Positions 1 to 10,407 of a stretch of 64,000 nt of DNA are shown piece by piece (positions within the stretch are counted from its first letter, which is position 1; each line of letters begins with the position of its first letter). Source of the stretch: Flagellimonas taeanensis (GTDB lineage: Bacteria; Bacteroidota; Bacteroidia; Flavobacteriales; Flavobacteriaceae); contig NZ_QXFO01000027.1 in assembly GCF_003584105.1 (NCBI RefSeq), positions 186,001 to 250,000 on the forward strand. The letters are read 5' to 3'. The notes under the pieces are model-generated. The model searched no databases. It saw only the letters and a program-made list of their open reading frames with translations, and had not been told where the DNA came from. A program made the position numbers and the translations under genes.

Positions 1-2073
1 TGCCAAATTCTCCAAGGTTTCCTTTTTCTCTTTGGCGGTCCTGAACCGATTGAGGTAATCCACGGTAACCGGCATGTCCTTCAACCGTTCGGAAAAAGTG
101 CGATGATGTTGAAATGCCAAAATGGTTGTGGGTACCAAAACGGCTACCTGTTTGCCATTATCCACGGCCTTGAATGCCGCGCGAATGGCCACTTCGGTCT
201 TTCCAAAACCAACATCCCCACAGATGAGTCGGTCCATGGGTCGTTCGCTCTCCATGTCCATTTTTACATCTTGGGTCGACTTTTCCTGATCGGGCGTGTC
301 CTCGTACAGGAAGGAAGCCTCTAGTTCGTATTGCAAATAACTATCAGGGGCGCACTGAAACCCTTTTTCCAGGCGACGTTTGGCATATACTTGGATCAGG
401 TTGAAGGCAATCTGCTTGACCCGGCTCTTGGTCTTTTGTTTTAGGCTTTTCCAGGCTGCGGAACCCAGTTTGTAGATTTTGGGCGGTGCCCCGTCCTTAC
501 CGTTGTATTTTGAGATTTTGTGGAGCGAATGGATACTGACATACAAAATATCGCGGTCGCCATAGATCAACTTGATGGCCTCCTGCTTTTTGCCCTCGAC
601 ATCAATTTTTTGGAGCCCGCCGAACTTTCCTATACCGTGATCGATATGGGTTACGTAATCCCCTATCTCCAGTTTGTTGAGTTCCTTGAGGGTGATGGCT
701 TGTTTCTTGGCATAGCCATTTTTAAGGTGGAACTTGTGGTACCGCTCAAAGATCTGATGGTCCGTATAGCAGGCCAGTTTCAGGTCATCATCAATAAAAC
801 CTTGATAGAGGGGTAGTACGATTATTTTGTAATCCACACTTCGACTACGCTCAGTGTCCTTGCTGTTTTCATTTTCTTGTTGGCTGAGCGTAGTCGAAGC
901 CAAATCATCAAAAATATCGTGGAAGCGTTTGGCCTGCTGCTCGGTGGAGCAGAAAATATAGTTGGTATACCCTGCTTTCCGGTTTTCGTTGAGGTTTTCG
1001 ATCAACAGGTCGAACCTTTTGTTAAAGGCGGGTTGGGGTTTTGTATGAAATTGTATTTCGTCACTTCGACTTTGCTCAGTGACCATATCGCCTATATTTG
1101 GGGTGCTGAGCGGAGCCGAAGTCCCAATCTCAACACATAAAAAATCCTGCAATTGCTCCTTCAGCAAAGCTGAATCCGTAAAAAGCTCTTTGGGCTCTGC
1201 ATGTTTGATCTCCGTGCCCAATTTGGCAAAACTTTCCTCGGCCTTTACAAAAAACGAATCGATTCGGTCGTAGATCAGCGCCGGATTTTTGGCAAAAACT
1301 ACCGTTCGGGGAGAGATATATTTTAGAAAACTCTCCCGTGATTCCTGCAAGAACTTGTTCTCCACATTGGGGATGATGGTGATTTTCTTCACCTTGTCCG
1401 TAGAGAGTTGGGTCTCCACGTCAAAAGTTCGGATGCTGTCCACTTCGTCCCCAAAAAATTCAATGCGATAAGGTTGGTCATGAGAGAAGGAGAATACATC
1501 CACTATACCGCCACGAACGGAAAACTCCCCAGGTTCGGTCACAAAATCCACCCGTTTGAACTGGTATTCAAAAAGCACTTCGTTCAAAAAATCGAGGGAG
1601 AGGGTATCTTCCAGTTTTATTTTCAGGGTATTCCTGTCCAATTCCTTTCGCGTGACCACTTTTTCAAAAAGGGCATCGGGGTAGGTGACAATCACCGCTG
1701 GTTTTTTCCTAGAGTTGATGCGGTTGAGCACTTCGGCACGCAACAACACATTGGCATTGTCCGTTTCCTCAATTTGGTAGGGCCTTCGGTAACTGCCCGG
1801 ATAAAAAAGTACATCGTTCTCCCCGATCAACAGTTCAAGGTCGTTCAAGAGATATGCCGCTTCTTCCTTGTCGTTCAGAATCAATAGAAAAGGAGAGTCA
1901 ACAGTTTTAAAAACCTCTGAAACCGCAAAGGACAAGGAAGAACCAACGAGTCCTCTAACATTTATTCTTCTATTCTTATTTTGGGCGGATTCAAGGGATT
2001 GGGTAATAGTATCCCTCAATTTCCCGAGAGCGGGAGACTGTGCAAAAAGCTGGGAAATCGGGGCTTTGGTCAA
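1..2073 (-). CDS. mfd: Transcription-repair coupling factor Mfd, 3' part beyond the window
   Basis: The minus strand is open from the left edge to about 2.1 kb and reads as the first 691 residues of Mfd, the ATP-driven translocase that removes stalled RNA polymerase and recruits UvrA. Visible parts are the UvrB-like N-terminal module (SYRRPYQIEE, FSVRGGIVDVFS near 90-200), the RNA-polymerase-binding segment (GDYVTHIDHGIGKF near 455) and helicase motif I (ICGDVGFGKTEVA near 620). No ATG precedes the conserved start of homology, so TTG at 2071-2073 is the likely start; a perfect TAnnTTTG box lies 17 bp upstream. Two palindromic repeats sit in frame at about residues 318-337 and 392-412, in a linker where relatives, as I remember them, are shorter. 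The C-terminus is off the window. Confidence 0.95.
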   Translation of the reverse strand, partial: MTKAPISQLFAQSPALGKLRDTITQSLESAQNKNRRINVRGLVGSSLSFAVSEVFKTVDSPFLLILNDKEEAAYLLNDLELLIGENDVLFYPGSYRRPYQIEETDNANVLLRAEVLNRINSRKKPAVIVTYPDALFEKVVTRKELDRNTLKIKLEDTLSLDFLNEVLFEYQFKRVDFVTEPGEFSVRGGIVDVFSFSHDQPYRIEFFGDEVDSIRTFDVETQLSTDKVKKITIIPNVENKFLQESRESFLKYISPRTVVFAKNPALIYDRIDSFFVKAEESFAKLGTEIKHAEPKELFTDSALLKEQLQDFLCVEIGTSAPLSTPNIGDMVTEQSRSDEIQFHTKPQPAFNKRFDLLIENLNENRKAGYTNYIFCSTEQQAKRFHDIFDDLASTTLSQQENENSKDTERSRSVDYKIIVLPLYQGFIDDDLKLACYTDHQIFERYHKFHLKNGYAKKQAITLKELNKLEIGDYVTHIDHGIGKFGGLQKIDVEGKKQEAIKLIYGDRDILYVSIHSLHKISKYNGKDGAPPKIYKLGSAAWKSLKQKTKSRVKQIAFNLIQVYAKRRLEKGFQCAPDSYLQYELEASFLYEDTPDQEKSTQDVKMDMESERPMDRLICGDVGFGKTEVAIRAAFKAVDNGKQVAVLVPTTILAFQHHRTFSERLKDMPVTVDYLNRFRTAKEKKETLENLA
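839..899. repeat. Palindromic repeat inside mfd, copy B
   Basis: Perfect 16-bp inverted repeat: CTTCGACTACGCTCAG at 839-854 and its reverse complement at 884-899, with a 29-bp spacer. It keeps the mfd reading frame and adds the peptide STTLSQQ...DTERSRS. The same core (CTGAGCGnAGyCGAAG) recurs in the gap at 2.1-2.75 kb. Confidence 0.85.
1064..1121. repeat. Palindromic repeat inside mfd, copy A
   Basis: Inverted repeat with arms CTTCGACTTTGCTCAG (1064-1079) and CTGAGCGGAGCCGAAG (1106-1121). The arms are imperfect complements, with three mismatches. It also stays in frame and encodes TSAPLSTPN...TEQSRS in Mfd. The arm decay suggests it is older than the copy at 839-899. Confidence 0.8.
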
Positions 2074-2089
2074 TCCAAAAACTTTGCGG

Positions 2090-2097
2090 CAAAGATA
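2090..2097 (-). promoter_or_regulatory. -7 promoter element of mfd
   Basis: On the minus strand the bases read TATCTTTG, a perfect match to the Bacteroidota -7 consensus TAnnTTTG. It lies 17 bp before the proposed TTG start, which implies a very short leader and supports that start. No clear -33 TTG is visible. Confidence 0.5.
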
Positions 2098-2119
2098 AAC
2101 TGAAATGTTTTTAGGGAAA

Positions 2120-2742
2120 ATGTTTTTTGAATTTTCTCGTCGCTTTGCTTTGTTGAAATGACAAAGCGCCCCTAGGTCATTCTGAGCGGAGCGAAGAATC
2201 TAATTCAAAATGACAAATTGTTGGTGTTTTCGTAGGGTACCCTGAGCGGAGTCGAAGGGTACTTTACGACCAATCAGATGTATATTAAATGATTGGACAC
2301 GAATGGCACAAATTATCCCGAATATTCTATTGTCATTCTGAGCGGAGCGAAGAATCTTATGTGTTTTTGGATTTCTCGTCGCTTTGCTCCATCGAAATGA
2401 CAAAGCACCTCTGGGTCATTCTGAGCGGAGCGAAGAATCTCCACTTGAAGTTTACGGAAGGTTTTTAGTTCTATCTATTATGGGATGCTGAATCAAGTTC
2501 AGCATGACAAGAGTATGATTAGATTTCTCGTGACCTTGCTCCATCGAAATGACAGAGCACCTCTGGGTCATTCCGAGTCAAGCGAAGAATCTCCACTTGA
2601 AGTTTACGGAAGGTTTTTAATTCTATCTATTATGGGATGCTAAATCAAGTTCAGCATGACAAGAGTATGATTAGATTTCTCGTCGACTTGCTCCATCGAG
2701 ATGACAAAGCACCACTGGGTCATTCTGAGCGGAGCGAAGAAT
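2120..2742. repeat. Array of degenerate palindromic intergenic repeats, including a tandem duplication
   Basis: This gap holds no credible gene. It has five copies of a TCATTCTGAGCGGAGCGAAG-type arm ending in AATCT (near 2178, 2333, 2414, 2570, 2721) and one GAGCGGAGTCGAAGGG variant near 2243. Several are paired with an inverted, diverged partner of the form TTTCTCGTCGCTTTGCTCC (near 2134, 2374, 2523, 2676). About 160 bp is duplicated in tandem: 2430-2530 and 2588-2690 share the same run from CCACTTGAAGTTTACGGAAGG to GATTAGATTTCTCG with few changes. Each copy also holds a second small palindrome, CTGAATCAAGTTCAGCATG or its variant. Repeats of this look are frequent in Flavobacteriia genomes; their function is unknown. 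Confidence 0.85.
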
Positions 2743-3369
2743 CTAAACTCTAACAACGGTATCCTCCACAATGGCAAAAATCTCATCCTTTTTGGACGGT
2801 TTTAGGGTATAGGTTCCGGTAAATTCCCCAAATGCGGGCAACACCATTTGGTTTCCCGATTTGAAAAAGCAAGGAAGTCTCAAATGTTGACGACCAAAGC
2901 CCCGTAATCTCACGGCAGGGTGAATGTGTCCGCAAAAGGTGAACAGCCCTTCACGCATCTCGGGGTGATGGGTCAATAAAAAATCATCCATAATCAGTTC
3001 AGGAAAAATCTTAACGTCCAGTTTTTCAAACTTTTCCGGGGCGATGATGTCGTGGTTACCTGAAACCAAAATCATCTCAGCAGGGGTTTTGGCCACCCAG
3101 TTCTCGAACAATTCCCATTCCTTGTTCAAGGACGAATGGAAGAGGTCGCCCAAAAAGCAGATTTGAAAGGGTTGGAAATCGGACACGATCTTGTCCAATA
3201 GAACAAAATTCTTGTGTATCGCCTTTCGGGGAACTGCTGCTCCGAACTTTCGAAAATGGGATACTTTCCCTAAATGCACATCACTGATAAGCAAAAGGGA
3301 TTTCTCTTCCCAAAAAAGTCCACCCAAAGGGTGGAGGGTAAAATTTTGTTGCCGGATGGAGATGTTCAT
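2743..3369 (-). CDS. pdeM: Ligase-associated metallophosphoesterase PdeM
   Basis: Calcineurin-like phosphoesterase of about 208 residues. The metal-binding motifs appear in order: DVHLGK, GDLFHS, GNHD, THHPE and GHIHP. These match the PdeM/MPE nuclease family (TIGR04123) that clusters with an Lhr-like helicase, an ATP-dependent DNA ligase and a beta-CASP-like exonuclease in a bacterial DNA-repair module. The helicase lies 4.6 kb upstream; ligase and exonuclease are absent here. I take the ATG at 3367-3369 (MNISIRQQNFTLHP) as start by homology; an ATG at 3387 adds six residues. The stop codon abuts the last repeat of the intergenic array. Confidence 0.88.
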   Translation of the reverse strand: MNISIRQQNFTLHPLGGLFWEEKSLLLISDVHLGKVSHFRKFGAAVPRKAIHKNFVLLDKIVSDFQPFQICFLGDLFHSSLNKEWELFENWVAKTPAEMILVSGNHDIIAPEKFEKLDVKIFPELIMDDFLLTHHPEMREGLFTFCGHIHPAVRLRGFGRQHLRLPCFFKSGNQMVLPAFGEFTGTYTLKPSKKDEIFAIVEDTVVRV

Positions 3370-3410
3370 AAGCTCCAAAGATACCATAGCTTAATCGGAT
3401 TTGCCACAAC

Positions 3411-3439
3411 AAAAAAGCCCCGACATAATTGCCGGGGCT
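3411..3439 (-). terminator. Intrinsic terminator of the secreted nuclease gene
   Basis: Minus strand: AGCCCCG, a 10-base loop, CGGGGCT, then TTTTT. It lies 23 bp past the nuclease stop and before pdeM, so pdeM probably has its own promoter. Confidence 0.8.
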
Positions 3440-3461
3440 ATCTATTTGAAAAATAGTAAAA

Positions 3462-6400
3462 CTATCCTTTTTTGACGACAGGTAAGATTTTTATCAGTCT
3501 GCCATTTGTGTACACTTTGATAAAATAAATACCTCTTCGGTATGATTCCATATCGACAAGGGCCGATTCTGTTCCAATTGGTACATCCAATTGGGAAACC
3601 GTCCTCCCGATGAAGTTGTAGACAACAATCTGGACATTTTCATCGATGGGGCAACCAAAAGATACATTTACCGAGCCTACGAATGGATTGGGATAGGCAT
3701 TGGCCATGATTCGGCATCCATCCGACGAGGTATCACAAGAACCTAAAATGTCCCCGATGGCCAAGTGGTATTTAACCGCATATTGTGATACGCAGATTTC
3801 TCGACCGTTATGGCACATCGCCACTTTGGGATTTCTTGGATTATTGCCACAGCTTACGTCAATGACTTCCACGGTAATGGTCTCCATAGTGGAACAACCA
3901 TTTTCGTCGGTTACGATGACTTCATAATCTGTGGTCTGTTCAGGGCAAACCGTGATGCTGTTTCCTGTTTCGCCTGTGCTCCAAACAATTTCATAGGTAC
4001 CTGCTCCGCCTTCAACGGAAAGCACTTCCAAAGTGGTACAACTTTGAGGTTCGTAACCCAAATATACCGTAGCATCACCAGAAGTGGTCATTGTGATCAT
4101 GTCAGGCTCCGTAATGGTCACTTCTGCCTCAAATTGCTGTAGAAGGGCATCACTCACCACCACGGTATACGAACCGGCCCTAAGACCAGATGCCGTTTGC
4201 GTGGTCTGTCTATCGCTCCAAACATAGGTATATGGGGCAACGCCACCACTTACGGCAACGGTTGCTGTTCCATCCGCTTCTCCAAAACAACTTACATCAG
4301 TTGATGAAATGGATTCAAAGGCAAAAGGTTTGAGCATCAATCGTACCGAAACGGGCAAGTGGTCCGATGTGGTACTTGCATAATCGTAATCATAGAATTC
4401 ATAGTGCGATTGGGCCGAATGTTCAATGTATCTTGGCAATACTTCGTCGGTACCTGAAATGTGATCGATCATATCCTGTTCGAACACATAGGAACGGAAG
4501 CCGTTTTCACTGAGTGTTGCGGTGAACACACTGTAATTTGCAGCATCGTTCACGTAATTTTCATAGGAACTTACCGTGGTTGAAGTGATATCGGCAACGG
4601 TCACATCCACATCGTCATTATAATCGCCCAATAGGATGAGGTTCCGATCAGCGTAATACACATCCAAGCTATCTTTGAGCACTTCCACATCATACTTCCG
4701 CATATCGTAGCGCAACTGGGCATCACTGCTTCCGTTGGCACGGGCATGTAGGGCCACAAAATCATAGGTTTCGGTTTCCCCGTTGATGGTAATATCGGCT
4801 GTCATCAAGAAAGGCAATCTTCCACTGGCATAAAAACGATCCGGTTCGCTAGGGTAATCTGTCAAAGCTGAAGTGTCACCCCCGTTGTAATAGGGATGAA
4901 TGGATTCCAACAAAACCTTGGTATCGGTGACGGTGACGGTCTCTGTATTGTAAATGAAGCCTACTTTTTGATGGACCCCTGGATCGTTGGGATAGGAGAC
5001 CGCAGGTGAAAGCACATAATCGTAACCGGGCAGTTCGCTGACCATTTCCGCAAAAAGGGCATCATCGGCGATTTCTTCCACAGCCAATACATCAGGTTGT
5101 AATTCGGCTATTACCGCTTTTACACTGTCCTTTTGGATGGCATCAGAATCTGGGTCTCCCGCTGCAGGGGAATTGCCTTCATCGCCAAACCATTCTATGT
5201 TCCATGTGGCCACTTCCAATGTACTGGCCTTGTCCACTTCCACAGGAAGTGCTGGTGGCACATAGTCGCCTGCACAGGCAAGGTCGGTCCGGATCCTGGG
5301 CAATAATTGATATAATTCAAAATACTTTCCAACCACTCCAATGACCTCACCACAGGTTTCAGGTTGGGCAAGACCCACCAAGCTTTCCACATCGCCATCG
5401 ATACGCAGTTCACCGGGACCACTAATATCACTCACCACATAGTTGGAATTCCCAAACAAAAGATCTCCGGGTTTTGGGAAGGTCACATCCACTATCCTGA
5501 CCAATTCTGCTGGGTGCTGGTTCATTTCGGCCAAGGTGATGTCCGATGGAACAATCGGTTCGCTGGGGGTGCCGTTGGAAGTGACCTCGGTGACCGGACT
5601 GATCTGGATCTGTTCGTTGAAAGAGCTTCTAACACCGGTAATGGTAATGGAATCCCCAATCATGAACACTCCGTCTCCGTGAACTTGTTCATCAAAAACG
5701 GCAATGGCTCCTGTTTGGTCCTGAATGTAGGCAGAGCCTGCAAATTGGTCTGTAACGGTCAACACACCACTTATGGTCACCAATGTACCATCGCTTAAAG
5801 CACGTGCTTCGGCAATGGTAATGAGTTCTGGGTTTTCGTTGTTACCGCCTCCACCATAGGTGCCGATGGGGAACGGTAATCCGGCCGTGTCATTTGTGGT
5901 AGTATCGTCCAAGGCATCGGTACCACTATAGGTCCAATTGTCCAGCTCAAAGGTGACACCATCAGGACCTGTTCCATTTTTTCGATAGGCCCAGCCATCC
6001 ACATAATCCCATGCCTGTCCTGTTCCATCCATATTGATATCCCCAAAAACATCAATTACTGCTCCTTCAAAAAAGAGCTCAATGGCATCATCGCCATTAA
6101 TGGCGGCCGAAGATGAGGTATAGTCGGGTGCAAATCCAAAATAGCTTTCAAAACCAGTACTTTCACTGGCAATGTAGATAAAGGTACCTCCTGGAACACT
6201 TACGGCAGGAAAGGTAAATTCCTCTCCATCGGTACCTCCACCGTTATTGGCAGAACCGATTCCGTAAATACTTAAATCTGCAATATCATTTGAAACATAG
6301 AGTTCGATGGCCTTGGGTACACCTCCGGTCAAAGGGCCGTCCACAACCCCGGTAATGATGAGGTCCGGACCATAGGCACCTAAAGGAAACGGAGTGGCGG

Positions 6401-7811
6401 CCGTATCATTGGTAAGGGCACCATCCATGGCATCAATGCCACTAAAAATCCAATTGTCGATGACAAAAGTACTTCCATCAGGTCCGGTGTCGTCCTTACG
6501 ATAGGCCCAACCGTCCACATAGTCCCATGCTTGGCCCGAACCATCCAGGTTGATGTCACCAAACACATCGATGACGGAACCATTGAGAAACAATTCAATG
6601 GCATCATCACCATTGATGGCCATGGACCCGGAGGTATAGTCGGGTGCAAACCCGAAGAAGCTTTCAAAACCTGAGGTTTCGGTGGCGACATATATGTGTG
6701 TGCCGGCAGTCACGGCATCGGCGGGAAAGGTAAATTCCTCCCCATCGGTGCCACCACCATTATTGGCTGAACCCAAACCATATACACTGAGATCGGCAAT
6801 ATCTTCCAAGGCATAAAGTTCCACTCCTTTGGGAACCCCTCCGGTCAAAGGACCATCATAAACCCCCGTAATGATTAGACCAGCCACAGTAGGTGTGCTG
6901 GAATCGGTGTGGGCATCGGCAGCAACCCCTGTGGAATACATCAAACTGGGATCATAGGACCAGATTCGGTAACCATAACTCGTGTTCTCCAATAAACCTT
7001 GGTGGTCAAATGTTGAGGCGTTTCCAACATAAATTACAGTGGCCCCATTGGGCAATGTATCCCCTTCTGAATAGGTTGTTTCATTCACTAAAGTTTCAGA
7101 AACAGTGCCACTTGCAATGGTAGCAACCACAACGGGATTGCTATCGGTATTTAAGTTCCAAGAAAGGGAAATGCTGGAAGTACCTGTTGATGTAGCCGTA
7201 AAATTGGAAACATTGTCCACTGTTGGGGTTACCACTCCACCAAAGGTGCCAATCGGGAATGGATTGGCGGCCGTGGCGTTTTGGGTTTCATTGTCCAGAG
7301 CATCCGTGCCACTGTAGGTCCAATTGTCCAACACAAAGGTGCTACCATCTGGCCCGGTCCCATTTTTACGGTAGACCCATCCATCCACATAGTCCCATGC
7401 TTGTCCGGTTCCATCTACGTTGATGTCGCCGAACACATCGATCACTGAACCGTTAAAGAAAAGTTCGATGGCGTCGTCACCATTGATATTGACGGCGGAA
7501 TCCATGTAATTAGGAGCAAATCCGAAAAAATTGGTGAATTCCACATCTTCGGTAGCTATGTAAATAAAAGTCCCTGCGGTTGCCGCATCGGCGGGGAAGG
7601 TAAATTCCTCACCATCGGTACCACCACCGTTGTTGGCCGATCCCAAACCGTAGAGGCTGAGGTCAGCAATATCGTTCTGGACATAGAGTTCCACGGCCTT
7701 GGGAATGCCCCCGGTAAGGGGTCCGTCCACAATTCCGGTAATTTTCAAATCTTGGGCAGATGAGCCAAGAATAAAAGAAAAAAGAAATAAGAGAAAGTAA
7801 ATTTTCTTCAT
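3462..7811 (-). CDS. Secreted T9SS multidomain endonuclease/exonuclease/phosphatase-family nuclease
   Basis: 1449 residues. Order of parts: signal peptide (1-19), lamin-tail-like domain copy 1 (22-190), a fibronectin-III-like stretch (195-305), lamin-tail-like copies 2 (310-478) and 3 (484-652), a DUF5689/OB-like domain (660-770), then an endonuclease/exonuclease/phosphatase domain (865-1150). That domain keeps WNIEWFG, AVEEI, ALHARANG, LLGDYNDD and TSDHLPV, so the catalytic Asn, Glu, His and Asp-His positions are present. A SprB-type repeat follows (1167-1240), then a second Ig-like module and a T9SS type-A sorting domain (about 1367-1449, starting NAYPNPF). It is inferred to be an extracellular DNase used for nutrient or matrix DNA. 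It interrupts the pdeM-helicase pair and has its own promoter and terminator. Confidence 0.9.
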   Translation of the reverse strand: MKKIYFLLFLFSFILGSSAQDLKITGIVDGPLTGGIPKAVELYVQNDIADLSLYGLGSANNGGGTDGEEFTFPADAATAGTFIYIATEDVEFTNFFGFAPNYMDSAVNINGDDAIELFFNGSVIDVFGDINVDGTGQAWDYVDGWVYRKNGTGPDGSTFVLDNWTYSGTDALDNETQNATAANPFPIGTFGGVVTPTVDNVSNFTATSTGTSSISLSWNLNTDSNPVVVATIASGTVSETLVNETTYSEGDTLPNGATVIYVGNASTFDHQGLLENTSYGYRIWSYDPSLMYSTGVAADAHTDSSTPTVAGLIITGVYDGPLTGGVPKGVELYALEDIADLSVYGLGSANNGGGTDGEEFTFPADAVTAGTHIYVATETSGFESFFGFAPDYTSGSMAINGDDAIELFLNGSVIDVFGDINLDGSGQAWDYVDGWAYRKDDTGPDGSTFVIDNWIFSGIDAMDGALTNDTAATPFPLGAYGPDLIITGVVDGPLTGGVPKAIELYVSNDIADLSIYGIGSANNGGGTDGEEFTFPAVSVPGGTFIYIASESTGFESYFGFAPDYTSSSAAINGDDAIELFFEGAVIDVFGDINMDGTGQAWDYVDGWAYRKNGTGPDGVTFELDNWTYSGTDALDDTTTNDTAGLPFPIGTYGGGGNNENPELITIAEARALSDGTLVTISGVLTVTDQFAGSAYIQDQTGAIAVFDEQVHGDGVFMIGDSITITGVRSSFNEQIQISPVTEVTSNGTPSEPIVPSDITLAEMNQHPAELVRIVDVTFPKPGDLLFGNSNYVVSDISGPGELRIDGDVESLVGLAQPETCGEVIGVVGKYFELYQLLPRIRTDLACAGDYVPPALPVEVDKASTLEVATWNIEWFGDEGNSPAAGDPDSDAIQKDSVKAVIAELQPDVLAVEEIADDALFAEMVSELPGYDYVLSPAVSYPNDPGVHQKVGFIYNTETVTVTDTKVLLESIHPYYNGGDTSALTDYPSEPDRFYASGRLPFLMTADITINGETETYDFVALHARANGSSDAQLRYDMRKYDVEVLKDSLDVYYADRNLILLGDYNDDVDVTVADITSTTVSSYENYVNDAANYSVFTATLSENGFRSYVFEQDMIDHISGTDEVLPRYIEHSAQSHYEFYDYDYASTTSDHLPVSVRLMLKPFAFESISSTDVSCFGEADGTATVAVSGGVAPYTYVWSDRQTTQTASGLRAGSYTVVVSDALLQQFEAEVTITEPDMITMTTSGDATVYLGYEPQSCTTLEVLSVEGGAGTYEIVWSTGETGNSITVCPEQTTDYEVIVTDENGCSTMETITVEVIDVSCGNNPRNPKVAMCHNGREICVSQYAVKYHLAIGDILGSCDTSSDGCRIMANAYPNPFVGSVNVSFGCPIDENVQIVVYNFIGRTVSQLDVPIGTESALVDMESYRRGIYFIKVYTNGRLIKILPVVKKG
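5855..7745 (-). repeat. Three tandem-type copies of a ~500-bp domain-coding unit in the nuclease gene
   Basis: Units at about 7241-7745, 6377-6880 and 5855-6360 encode nearly the same ~168-residue domain (TGIVDGPLTGG ... NGDDAIELF ... GQAWDYVDGW ... LDNWTYSG). DNA identity is high in places (for example the CCACATAGTCCCATGC run recurs), which points to recent duplication and risk of misassembly. A fibronectin-like segment lies between units 1 and 2. Confidence 0.85.
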
Positions 7812-7834
7812 AGTGTGAGGTTGTAAAGTGTTCA

Positions 7835-7864
7835 GAAAACTAAAATCTTAAAATTTTGACAAAA
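7835..7864 (-). promoter_or_regulatory. Putative promoter of the secreted nuclease
   Basis: Minus strand shows TTTTG, a 17-base spacer, then TAGTTTTC (7 of 8 to TAnnTTTG). It lies about 25 bp before the ATG at 7811. Confidence 0.4.
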
Positions 7865-7926
7865 TCAGATCACCGCTGAATTAAGAATTCGTTAAGGGGT
7901 GGTTTTTTCGATGAACTGCACCTTAA

Positions 7927-10407
7927 TTATTTAGTTTGAAGAGATTTGACCATACGTTTGATGCGATCGGCCAGTTTTTCGTTGGACAACTTTTCCCGTA
8001 ATCGATCCGTAATGATCGGAAAGGAAAAAGGAGTGGGTTTTGTGCACTGTTTCCATACAATTTCCTGTTGGGCGATCCGTTCCAAGGCCAACCGCAAACG
8101 GCCTTCCTCCAATTGGTGTTCAAAGGTTTCGGTATAGGCTTGTTGGTATAAAAGATTGTCATCCTCAAAATCCTTGAACACATCGAACAACAATTCGGAA
8201 CTGCTTTGCAGGTGCTTCATTTTTATCCCTTTCTCTGGATAACCCGTGAATACCATCCCGCTGATAACAGCAATATCGCGGAATTTGCGCCGCGCCATCT
8301 CGTTGGAGTTCAAACTTTTTTGAAGGTCGGACAGCATATATTCCGAAGTGAAGAGGTCATTGTCCAAAATGCCCTGAATGTCGATTTTTTTATCCGATAG
8401 CAGCTCAAAACCATAATCGTTGAAGGCGAGGGAGCAGGTAATGGGGGTCAACAGACTAATGCGATAGGCCAACAGACTGCTCATGCCTTCATGGATGGCA
8501 CGCCCTTCAAAAGGATAAAAAATATGATGGTAACCATCACTCGTCTTAAACGTTTCGATCAGAAATTGATGGGGTTGGGGCACCAAACTTTCTTCCCGTT
8601 GTTTGGCGAACATGGGGGCAAGGGATTGGATTTCTGCGGATTGTTCCTCTTGGGGCAATTCTGCCGTGTACAGTTCTTGGCGGAGCAGTTCCGACATTTT
8701 AGCGGAGAAGCTTAACCTGCCGCCCATCCAACTGGGGACTTTATTGGTACGTTTGGAGGAATTTCGGACGTGGGCCGACATGCCTTTTATCCGAATGAAT
8801 TCCAGATTTCTGCCTGCAAAGGTGAAGACATCTCCCGGACTCAATTTAGAGATGAAATACTCCTCAATGGAACCGATGTATCCTCCCTTTTGGTAGCGCA
8901 CATGAATGGTGGCATCGCCCACAATGGTCCCAATCTGGAATCGGTGCCTCATGGCAACCGCCCTGCTGTTCACGATGAATTTGCCGTCTTCTTCCACCTC
9001 TACTTTTTTGTACTCGTCATAACTCTTCAAGCTTTGGCTGCCCATCACCAAAAAATTGAGCAACCACTGCCATTGTTCCTTCGAGAGGGCCTGATAACAA
9101 AAGGTCTGTTTGACTTCCTGATAGATTTCATCGGGATAAAACCCATCGGACACTGCCAAGGTGGTCAGATATTGAATAAGTACATCAAAGCTGTTGAGGT
9201 AAGGAATACGATCTTCCACGGCATTGTGAACAACCGCTTTTTGCATGGCCGAAGCTTCGATGAGTTCCATGGCATGGGTGGGCAAAAAATAGATCACACT
9301 TTCTTTCCCGGGCCGGTGACCGCTTCGCCCAGCACGTTGCAGAAAACGAGCGACTCCTTTGGGTCCCCCGATCTGTACCACGGTTTCCACGGGGGCAAAA
9401 TCCACACCAAGGTCCAAACTAGAAGTACACACAACGGCTCTTAGACTTTCATTACGGATGGCCTGTTCGACCCACAGTCGGGTTTCCTTGTTGATACTGC
9501 CATGGTGCATGGCCAGTTCCCCTGCATATTCCGGGTGTTGCTCCAAGATTTTTTGAAACCAGATTTCACATTGGCTTCGGGTGTTGGTAAAAAGCAGGGT
9601 GGTCTTACTTTGGTTGATGATGGGAATCACCTCTTCCAAAAGATGCAGGCCCAAATGTCCCCGCCAAGGAAAGGTTTCCATTTCCTTGGGAATGATGCTC
9701 TTGACCGTGATTTTCTTGTTCATCTCTGCCTTGATCAAAACTGAGTTTTCCAGTTCTTTGGAGGTGGGCCCCAAAAGTACTTCCCTTGCCTGTTCCAGAT
9801 TACCGATGGTGGCCGAAATGCCCCAAATGCGAAGGTTTTTGCAAACGGTTTTCAGGCGGGATAGGCCCAATTCCATTTGAACGCCCCGTTTGGTGCCCAA
9901 AAGTTCGTGCCATTCGTCCACCACAATGGCGATGCAATCCTTAAAAAGTTTTGCGTAGCCTTTGGAAGACAACAGCAGATGCAGACTTTCGGGAGTGGTG
10001 ATCAAAAGATCGGGCATGGCAGTTCTTTGCTTTGATCTTTCTTTGTTCGAAGTATCCCCGGTGCGGATGCCCACGCTCATTTGGGTGCCCAAATCTTGGG
10101 TGATCCGTTCCGCAGATTGTTTGATCTCTTGGGAAAGGGCACGGAGCGGTGTGATCCATACTGCTTTTAGACCCTTTTTGTGTTTTGTTCTGTAATCCGG
10201 ATGGTTTTGGATGTAGTTCAACACAATGGGAAACCACAGCGCATAGGTCTTTCCGCTTCCAGTAGGGGCGTTCAAAAGGCCATGTTTCCCATCCATGAAA
10301 GCAATCCAAGTCTGTTTTTGGAAAGGAAAAGGCTTCCAACTTTGTTGATGGAACCAATTTTCGGCAATATGGAACAATTCAGGATCTTTCAGGGGATGGG
10401 TGTTCAA
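7927..10407 (-). CDS. Ligase-associated DEXH-box DNA helicase (Lhr-core like)
   Basis: 826 residues, the normal size for TIGR04121 helicases. Motifs in order: NAPTGSGKTYA (Walker A, ~40), TPLRAL, TTPESL, VVDEWHEL (DEXH box), GISATIGN, then domain 2 with HHGSINKETR, SSLDLGVDFAPV and QRAGRSGHRPG (motif VI). A winged-helix and Lhr-core C-terminal region follow. It is a 3'-5' helicase thought to act with PdeM, ligase and exonuclease in strand-break repair. The start is TTG at 10405-10407; the first internal ATG falls near residue 34, just before motif I, so TTG is required. It ends 116 bp before the nuclease start. Confidence 0.92.
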   Translation of the reverse strand: MNTHPLKDPELFHIAENWFHQQSWKPFPFQKQTWIAFMDGKHGLLNAPTGSGKTYALWFPIVLNYIQNHPDYRTKHKKGLKAVWITPLRALSQEIKQSAERITQDLGTQMSVGIRTGDTSNKERSKQRTAMPDLLITTPESLHLLLSSKGYAKLFKDCIAIVVDEWHELLGTKRGVQMELGLSRLKTVCKNLRIWGISATIGNLEQAREVLLGPTSKELENSVLIKAEMNKKITVKSIIPKEMETFPWRGHLGLHLLEEVIPIINQSKTTLLFTNTRSQCEIWFQKILEQHPEYAGELAMHHGSINKETRLWVEQAIRNESLRAVVCTSSLDLGVDFAPVETVVQIGGPKGVARFLQRAGRSGHRPGKESVIYFLPTHAMELIEASAMQKAVVHNAVEDRIPYLNSFDVLIQYLTTLAVSDGFYPDEIYQEVKQTFCYQALSKEQWQWLLNFLVMGSQSLKSYDEYKKVEVEEDGKFIVNSRAVAMRHRFQIGTIVGDATIHVRYQKGGYIGSIEEYFISKLSPGDVFTFAGRNLEFIRIKGMSAHVRNSSKRTNKVPSWMGGRLSFSAKMSELLRQELYTAELPQEEQSAEIQSLAPMFAKQREESLVPQPHQFLIETFKTSDGYHHIFYPFEGRAIHEGMSSLLAYRISLLTPITCSLAFNDYGFELLSDKKIDIQGILDNDLFTSEYMLSDLQKSLNSNEMARRKFRDIAVISGMVFTGYPEKGIKMKHLQSSSELLFDVFKDFEDDNLLYQQAYTETFEHQLEEGRLRLALERIAQQEIVWKQCTKPTPFSFPIITDRLREKLSNEKLADRIKRMVKSLQTK

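Follow-up and report, generated by a model that had tools for sequence, protein, structure and literature searches.

The first gene of the 64,000-nucleotide stretch of Flagellimonas taeanensis DNA analysed here (the window) is mfd, encoding the transcription-repair coupling factor, and its frame contains palindromic repeats that are also found between genes. This raises the question of what these repeats are, and of how they came to be translated within a conserved protein. We have approached it through the architecture of the repeats, their distribution in this genome and in related mfd genes, and the small nuclease genes that similar palindromes enclose.

Hairpin units in the mfd gene

The initial annotation described two copies of an intergenic palindrome translated within Mfd, adding about 20 residues each, in the linker that precedes the RNA-polymerase-binding domain. 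When the cores are placed by their coordinates, the palindromes do lie in an mfd frame that is open throughout, and repeats are present at both sites (Table 1). Each "copy", however, is an inverted pair of ~24-nt units, so that there are four units in all, with every core in frame: 839-854(-) paired with 884-899(+), and 1064-1079(-) with 1106-1121(+). Allowing up to two mismatches, the window holds 7 core matches compared with a mean of 0.06 after shuffling. One copy was said to be perfect and the other decayed, and this is correct; the arms at 839/884 match exactly as reverse complements, whereas mismatches occur between those at 1064/1106, and the outer stem of the 1102-1125 unit is gone. 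Relative to shuffled sequences, both pairs are predicted to fold as DNA (835-903, z = -5.5; 1058-1125, z = -3.2) and as RNA (z = -5.8 and -3.3, respectively), while single 24-nt units fold weakly in the model.

Table 1. Features of the mfd region, in window coordinates
Feature	Position	Strand	Remarks
mfd (transcription-repair coupling factor), first 691 codons	1..2073	-	gene leaves the window at position 1; Pfam on the window's Mfd: UvrB_inter 150-236, CarD_TRCF_RID 468-523, DEAD 594-674
Site B insert, inverted pair of hairpin units (835-858 + 880-903)	835..903	-	translation ASTTLSQQENENSKDTERSRS
Core CTGAGCGTAGTCGAAG in site B	839..854	-	exact
Core CTGAGCGTAGTCGAAG in site B, inverted partner of 839-854	884..899	+	exact
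Site A insert, inverted pair (1060-1083 + 1102-1125)	1060..1125	-	translation TSAPLSTPNIGDMVTEQSRSD
Core CTGAGCAAAGTCGAAG in site A	1064..1079	-	one mismatch
Core CTGAGCGGAGCCGAAG in site A	1106..1121	+	exact
Single intergenic hairpin unit, core A family, upstream of mfd	2238..2261	+	core at 2242-2257

The gene forms one open frame across sites A and B (1201 aa from stop to stop), and the window's Mfd matches the Mfd structures of E. coli and others. The inserts span residues of about 392-412 (site B) and 318-337 (site A). The estimate of 20 residues holds for site B, but site A has gained only ~12: its linker (from the LF anchor to PQP) has 49 residues, and of the 69 linkers in which no repeat was detected, 44 have 35-38. 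Both sites do precede the RNA-polymerase-binding domain, with the correction that site A is some 130 residues ahead of it, since the RID match begins at residue 468. In an AlphaFold model of Mfd 1-691, which is poor as a whole (mean pLDDT 61), each site is a loop of low confidence flanked by secondary-structure elements (312-316/338-341 and 378-399/416-419).

A sequencing error, which the initial annotation had allowed for, is very unlikely in view of the 1201-aa open frame and the comparable inserts in many relatives. Chance is ruled out by the shuffled window, the shuffled linkers and a reversed-pattern control over the genome. Native Mfd residues are likewise ruled out, because in the alignment with other Mfd proteins the relatives without the core also lack the residues in question. 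No Rfam family matched at its gathering score in window positions 1-8000, and a plasmid blast gave no match. The intergenic region upstream of mfd (2074-2742) is dense in other repeats as well, with four copies of CATTCTGAGCGGAGCGAAGAATCT and two of GATGCTGAATCAAGTTCAGCATGACA (one with a mismatch) beside the one core A unit.

The repeat unit in the genome

A search of the 4.09-Mb F. taeanensis genome (G000), whose nearest named Mfd loci belong to the Flagellimonas/Allomuricauda group, found 49 exact copies of the core palindrome CTGAGCGNAGYCGAAG and none of its reversed control pattern. Four core neighbourhoods are identical between contigs C4 and C23 of this assembly (contamination estimate 5.83%), which points to redundant assembly; without them there are 45 distinct copies. 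The bases that flank the core are variable yet paired, being Watson-Crick at -1/+1 in 40/45 and at -2/+2 in 42/45, as compared to shuffled means of 16.6 and 16.1 (maxima 26 and 25). Each of these two positions shows three or four different pair types. Pairing at -3/+3 stands at 22/45 (shuffled mean 14.2, maximum 23), and farther out no position is above the shuffles. A fixed core with variable but paired outer bases thus defines the unit as a hairpin of 20-24 nt with a compensated outer stem. When the N of the core is a T, the core includes the sequence GTAG.

Many of the genomic copies are single units and not dimers; dimers of about 60-70 bp occur at 835-903 and 1060-1125, and there is a dimer at a locus of another genome (L413, see below). 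Seven of the 45 distinct copies are in frame in three conserved genes: three in mfd, three in leuS and one in prmC. Cores are also plentiful in other genomes, with 53 in G035 and 39 in each of G017 and G005.

The Mfd linker in related bacteria

Mfd was collected from 110 loci (30 from the F. taeanensis genome and its relatives, 80 from named records), of which 75 were aligned; the linker was measured in 109, with L098 excluded. Five repeat families, defined after the alignments had been viewed, were sought with mismatches: A (core CTGAGCGNAGYCGAAG), B (TCGAGCGNAGTCGAGA), C (CTGAANNAAGTTCAG), L (GCTGANCNTGTCGAAG) and D (CATTCTGARCGNAGNGAAGAATCT). A repeat is present in 40/109 linkers and, at the genus level, in 33/39 (four of the 39 being duplicates), against 10/2180 shuffled linkers and 20/2437 other windows of the same mfd genes. 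Inserts occur in further genera too: Aquimarina (L057), Psychroserpens (L053), Winogradskyella (L099) and Tenacibaculum (L097). Several members of the genus (L027, L028, L029) have no detected linker repeat. The Mfd linker is therefore a hot spot used by several repeat families, and is occupied in some relatives and empty in others. The element type first proposed was incomplete, in that these are dimers of short, REP-like hairpins and four or more further repeat families share this place in Mfd. With its different inserts at one place in related proteins, this loop provides a natural series for testing how essential proteins absorb selfish DNA.

At site B in the 75-row alignment, L017 has a similar insert, L054 and L058 shorter repeat-like ones, and L026/L039, L043 and L068 other short extra residues. 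Of the 20 matches in other windows of mfd, 14 are in an N-terminal window, 12 of these being of family B, so that this window is apparently a third insertion site (for example, IAQPLDSARGDS..KGLVGSS). Family B is found there in frame, at Mfd residues of about 25-40, in L003, L005, L008, L012, L021, L023, L025 and L030; the corresponding part of the window's own Mfd gave no family match. Two mfd linkers appear to have one palindrome nested in another with the frame still open, L003 (inside an A core) and L040 (TERPPAERAGSRS and HFDKPVRTCHTGGLSV, respectively). In the single-contig genome G018 (L149, C1:936500-941000) mfd seems to be split over frames, through either a sequencing error or a broken gene, and its N-terminal part has a further in-frame repeat, HPELVEG.

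Repeats in other proteins

The peptide TERSRS had been put forward as a searchable signature, and it is a usable one: either AERSRS or TERSRS was found in LeuRS, PrmC, MetRS and a DNA ligase. The core can be read in several open frames, however, of which this is just one; others read LSAVE, STTLS and FDSAQ. In the genus genomes with an intact LeuRS frame, this frame measures 943 to 1200 aa, as against 925 to 985 aa in the searched relatives from the order, and among the matches listed its inserts are at several sites; leuS of F. taeanensis contains A, B and C elements, distributed over three insert sites. Seven of the 20 PrmC loci of the genus (L200-L219) have the signature by eye, five as AERSRS and two in a near form, and the others have different inserts or none. 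TERSRS dimers also occur in the MetRS of G021 (metG, L239) and in the ATP-dependent DNA ligase of G034 (L369), where the spacer is similar to that of the mfd cassette in spite of the unrelated gene. These in-frame palindromes in mfd, leuS, prmC, metG and a DNA ligase gene bear out the likeness to Rickettsia palindromic elements that was originally suggested. For flavobacterial annotation in general, the peptides ERSRS, LSAVEG, LKQVQGD, SAVEK and AEPVEA mark translated repeats.

Some proteins carry a larger in-frame guest. DUF559 nuclease domains of ~105 residues, within inserts of 143-159 residues, are present in LeuRS (L236 and L237, leuS of G001 and G007), RecG (L283 and L287, recG of G012 and G018) and MetH (L274, metH of G034); the domain of L283 was recognized by Pfam and that of L287 by its sequence similarity to L283. 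In G001 and G007 the domain is at the LeuRS site that holds hairpins in F. taeanensis. Inverted palindromes resembling CCCCC..AAAGGGGGAG, of varying quality, stand at the insert ends, with end scores of 12 (L236), 15 (L237), 8 (L283) and 19 (L274) at the true ends; these scores have no control, which makes the palindrome claim weaker for DUF559 than for the GIY-YIG genes described below. Our first flank patterns, with wrong patterns or offsets, matched nothing or two loci only, and fixed-window flanks, which missed the insert ends, scored at least 18 in 0/19 (mean 9.1 vs a cross mean of 9.0).

GIY-YIG genes bounded by palindromes

One GIY-YIG gene of the F. taeanensis genome is enclosed by two inverted cores, at a distance of 13 bases from its start and 5 bases from its stop. 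A GIY-YIG protein of this genome is encoded at C23:77581-77930 (L235). The better-scoring GIY-YIG matches in 40 genus genomes, found with a profile that replaced early patterns that had missed many loci, yielded 92 usable loci at 35 independent positions, as judged by comparison of the outer flanks. No gene of UvrC length is among these sampled loci; 22/35 representatives have the strict GIY-YIG residue pattern and 35/35 a more relaxed version (Y-x-G, Arg before His, Glu). Using strictly non-coding flanks, an inverted match score of at least 14 and one random locus per position, we found inverted flanks at 15/35 positions vs 2.6% of mismatched pairs, the score being below 14 at the other 20; with the best locus per position the figures are 17/35 vs 3.3%. 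Scores of this order were obtained for 8/4000 random windows and for 30/872 intergenic-like windows, which overlap one another. Outside the genus, 23/29 new loci contain 25 small GIY-YIG ORFs, and 13/25 of these score at least 14 vs 2.2%. Some of the scoring flanks are terminator-like (L314 and L315 within the genus; L392, L398 and L405 outside it), and such flanks are absent from GIY-YIG genes of other types, for instance L267 and L352 (scores of 7.5 and 6.5). Inverted palindromes at both ends are nevertheless a feature of many of these genes.

The identity of the palindrome follows that of the protein. A flank repeat is common to 24/26 protein pairs with an identity of at least 0.55 and to 10/468 of those below 0.45, and the Mantel value for protein vs flank repeat is 0.315, the largest of 1000 permutations being 0.131. 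Inspection by eye gives the correspondences SDGSYYTGST with core A, SDNSYYTGMTND with TGAGCYTGTCGAAG, YRTTFYIGVT with CTGAACTTGTTTCAG, NGTLYIGMTNN with TTCCTGCGAAGGCAGGAA, and NKTTLYIGITNN with CATTTCGA..GAGAAATCT. Among the sampled loci, core A bounds the gene at only three independent positions (the groups of L255, L244 and L233), one of which is common to 10 loci and vertically inherited.

One locus was found in several states. It lies between two genes that, from their sequences, we take to encode homoserine dehydrogenase and a sulfhydrylase. Among the 30 genus loci surveyed (nine further genomes with a match were left out, and one had no match), 17 are empty, 11 contain a GIY-YIG gene, one has a dimer only (L413, in G005) and one has another insert. 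The two genes overlap as ATGA in 12/17 of the empty loci. The GIY-YIG gene has the core (up to two mismatches) on both sides, inverted, in 10/11 cases, L440 having it on the left only, and in 9/12 of the core-bearing loci the first core comes immediately after the upstream stop codon. The dimer-only state, seen in this single genome, could be a deletion derivative of the nuclease-bearing form. To our knowledge, the way in which RPE-like elements move has not been settled, and pairing each palindrome family with its own nuclease would give a direct and testable candidate for the mobiliser.

Origin and spread of the repeats

Considering all of the above, we would put at roughly two in three the probability that the mfd stretches consist of a short, mobile DNA hairpin in dimeric form, of which in-frame loop insertions have survived, and that the hairpin is mobilised by its cognate GIY-YIG protein. 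The protein would recognise its own hairpin and drive the copying of the hairpin-bounded unit, and the dimers without a gene would be non-autonomous derivatives moving in trans. The insertions would then pass through a sieve: those that break the frame or enter folded parts would be lost, and those in frame in exposed loops kept and translated. Such a sieve would follow from selection in general; as for the mobilisation by the nuclease, we infer it from sequence comparisons. A broader version of this scheme seems to us slightly better than an even bet. It supposes that the Flavobacteriales carry minimal mobile elements, consisting of a UPF0213-type GIY-YIG gene between its own hairpins, with each nuclease subfamily mobilising its own repeat family; gene-less dimers would take the role of REPINs and enter the loops of Mfd, LeuRS, PrmC, MetRS and DNA ligase, and DUF559 nucleases with another palindrome would likewise enter LeuRS, RecG and MetH as whole domains.

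The Mfd inserts could also be old cassettes that have been exchanged by recombination, or that remain after differential loss from a multi-cassette ancestor. This history is a real possibility, if one that we hold to be rather less than evenly likely, and it is compatible with a mobile hairpin. Insertion had initially been thought recurrent; occupation of the site certainly is, but a fresh insertion each time does not follow, as the spacer is common to cassettes of one type in different species, which would be expected equally from exchange, differential loss or fresh insertion. Searches with mfd cassettes as the queries lean towards old cassettes: the nine best matches of cassette A with its spacer are eight mfd genes and one ATP-dependent DNA ligase gene, and for cassette B the top seven are without exception mfd genes. 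So does the nearly random scatter of insert type on an mfd tree from which the linker and N-terminus were left out (39 rows, made up of 35 distinct sequences from the genus and four others), which requires 20 changes as compared to a shuffled mean of 22.1, with 30/200 shuffles as low. L009 and L022, which have the appearance of decayed C and L, were scored here as repeat-free. Well-supported sisters differ in type: L006 A and L015 B (100/100), L007 A and L019 C (100/98), L008 B and L012 C (100/98), and, with less support, L001 A and L002 B (84/68). Against exchange, the third-position identity of the flanks is not raised in same-type pairs except by 0.041 in the first 30 bases downstream (4/300 permutations as high), although the star-like radiation makes this a weak test of co-transfer, and flank comparisons between sisters show nothing consistent. 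The ligase dimer of L369, with its similar spacer in an unrelated gene, also counts against this history.

With regard to the mobiliser, an alternative to the GIY-YIG protein is that the dimers are REPINs moved by a present or former RAYT (TnpA_REP, a Y1 transposase), the GIY-YIG genes merely hitch-hiking between REPs. The dimer architecture and size are indeed REPIN-like, Y1_Tnp is present in 5/36 genus genomes, and a Bacteroidetes RAYT subclass is described, in the available part of PMC6006769, as having atypical flanking structures with copies elsewhere in the genome. Nevertheless, we consider this unlikely. The F. taeanensis genome, 99.99% complete, has no PF01797 (Y1_Tnp) match at E 0.001, nor is there a Y1_Tnp in the core-rich G035, G017 and G005, and inverted flanks scoring at least 14 accompany only 2/15 Y1_Tnp loci, both outside the genus and measured in rough windows. 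Moreover, hitch-hiking does not predict one repeat family for each GIY-YIG subfamily. Finally, retention of the inserts for a function, such as altered Mfd autoinhibition or an RNA hairpin that tunes translation, might be read from the occupancy at the genus level and from the strong predicted RNA folding, but it is highly improbable given that type, length and reading frame differ between sisters, that several members have no detected repeat and that the same peptides turn up in unrelated proteins.

Relation to known systems

Homing endonucleases and inteins offer examples both of GIY-YIG genes as selfish DNA and of nuclease domains in frame inside essential proteins. The DUF559 inserts of LeuRS, RecG and MetH resemble them; the present elements differ in their palindromic boundaries, in the gene-less copies dispersed in the genome and in having no splicing domain by Pfam (L236, L274 and L283).

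The closest published precedent that we found is that of the intragenic REPs, which are likewise short palindromes, dimerised, inside ORFs. According to the available text of PMC3733652 (2013), GTAG/CGTC REPs within ORFs add 20-30 residues, many of them in DNA repair and replication genes; over half are in dimers or groups; recB of two Xanthomonas has different REPs at about the same site; and the CGTC REPs are said to be without a dedicated transposase. The main text of that paper contains no mfd and mentions Bacteroidetes once, and neither a multi-family hot spot across a genus nor a nuclease partner is described in the text available. Intragenic REPs being already known, we regard the Mfd inserts as a further form of them; the nuclease link, if confirmed, would be more than that. 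The RPEs (Ogata et al. 2000, 2002, as cited in PMC10969869 and PMC6649704) are, in those accounts, palindromic selfish DNA of several families in frame in housekeeping genes; by description, and not by sequence, they differ in their length of ~150 bp (PMC10969869, in the part available) from the 24-nt units and ~60-70 bp dimers of the Flavobacteriaceae. REPINs and RAYTs (PMC3116915, PMC2817692 and PMC6006769, in their available parts) similarly combine inverted dimers of a short palindrome with repeats beside a cognate mobility gene, but their partner is an HUH Y1 transposase and here it is a GIY-YIG nuclease. Our literature search, which had most subscription journals outside its reach, found, among the papers listed, none connecting GIY-YIG genes to palindromic repeats and none describing Mfd inserts or a hot spot; the available portions of PMC12306157, PMC9769881 and PMC5808330 contain nothing on palindrome-bounded GIY-YIG genes or on Mfd inserts.

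The hairpin-bounded nuclease has sequence relatives of known structure in the UPF0213 proteins 1zg2 and 1ywl (E 1.5e-15 and 1.2e-11), which are labelled hypothetical and for which the structure table states no link with repeats. GIY-YIG genes also occur in tandem arrays of three to eight with a period of ~360 bp, in G078 (C34:6991-9748), G079 (C224:649-1580) and G018 (C1:510163-511105, L314).
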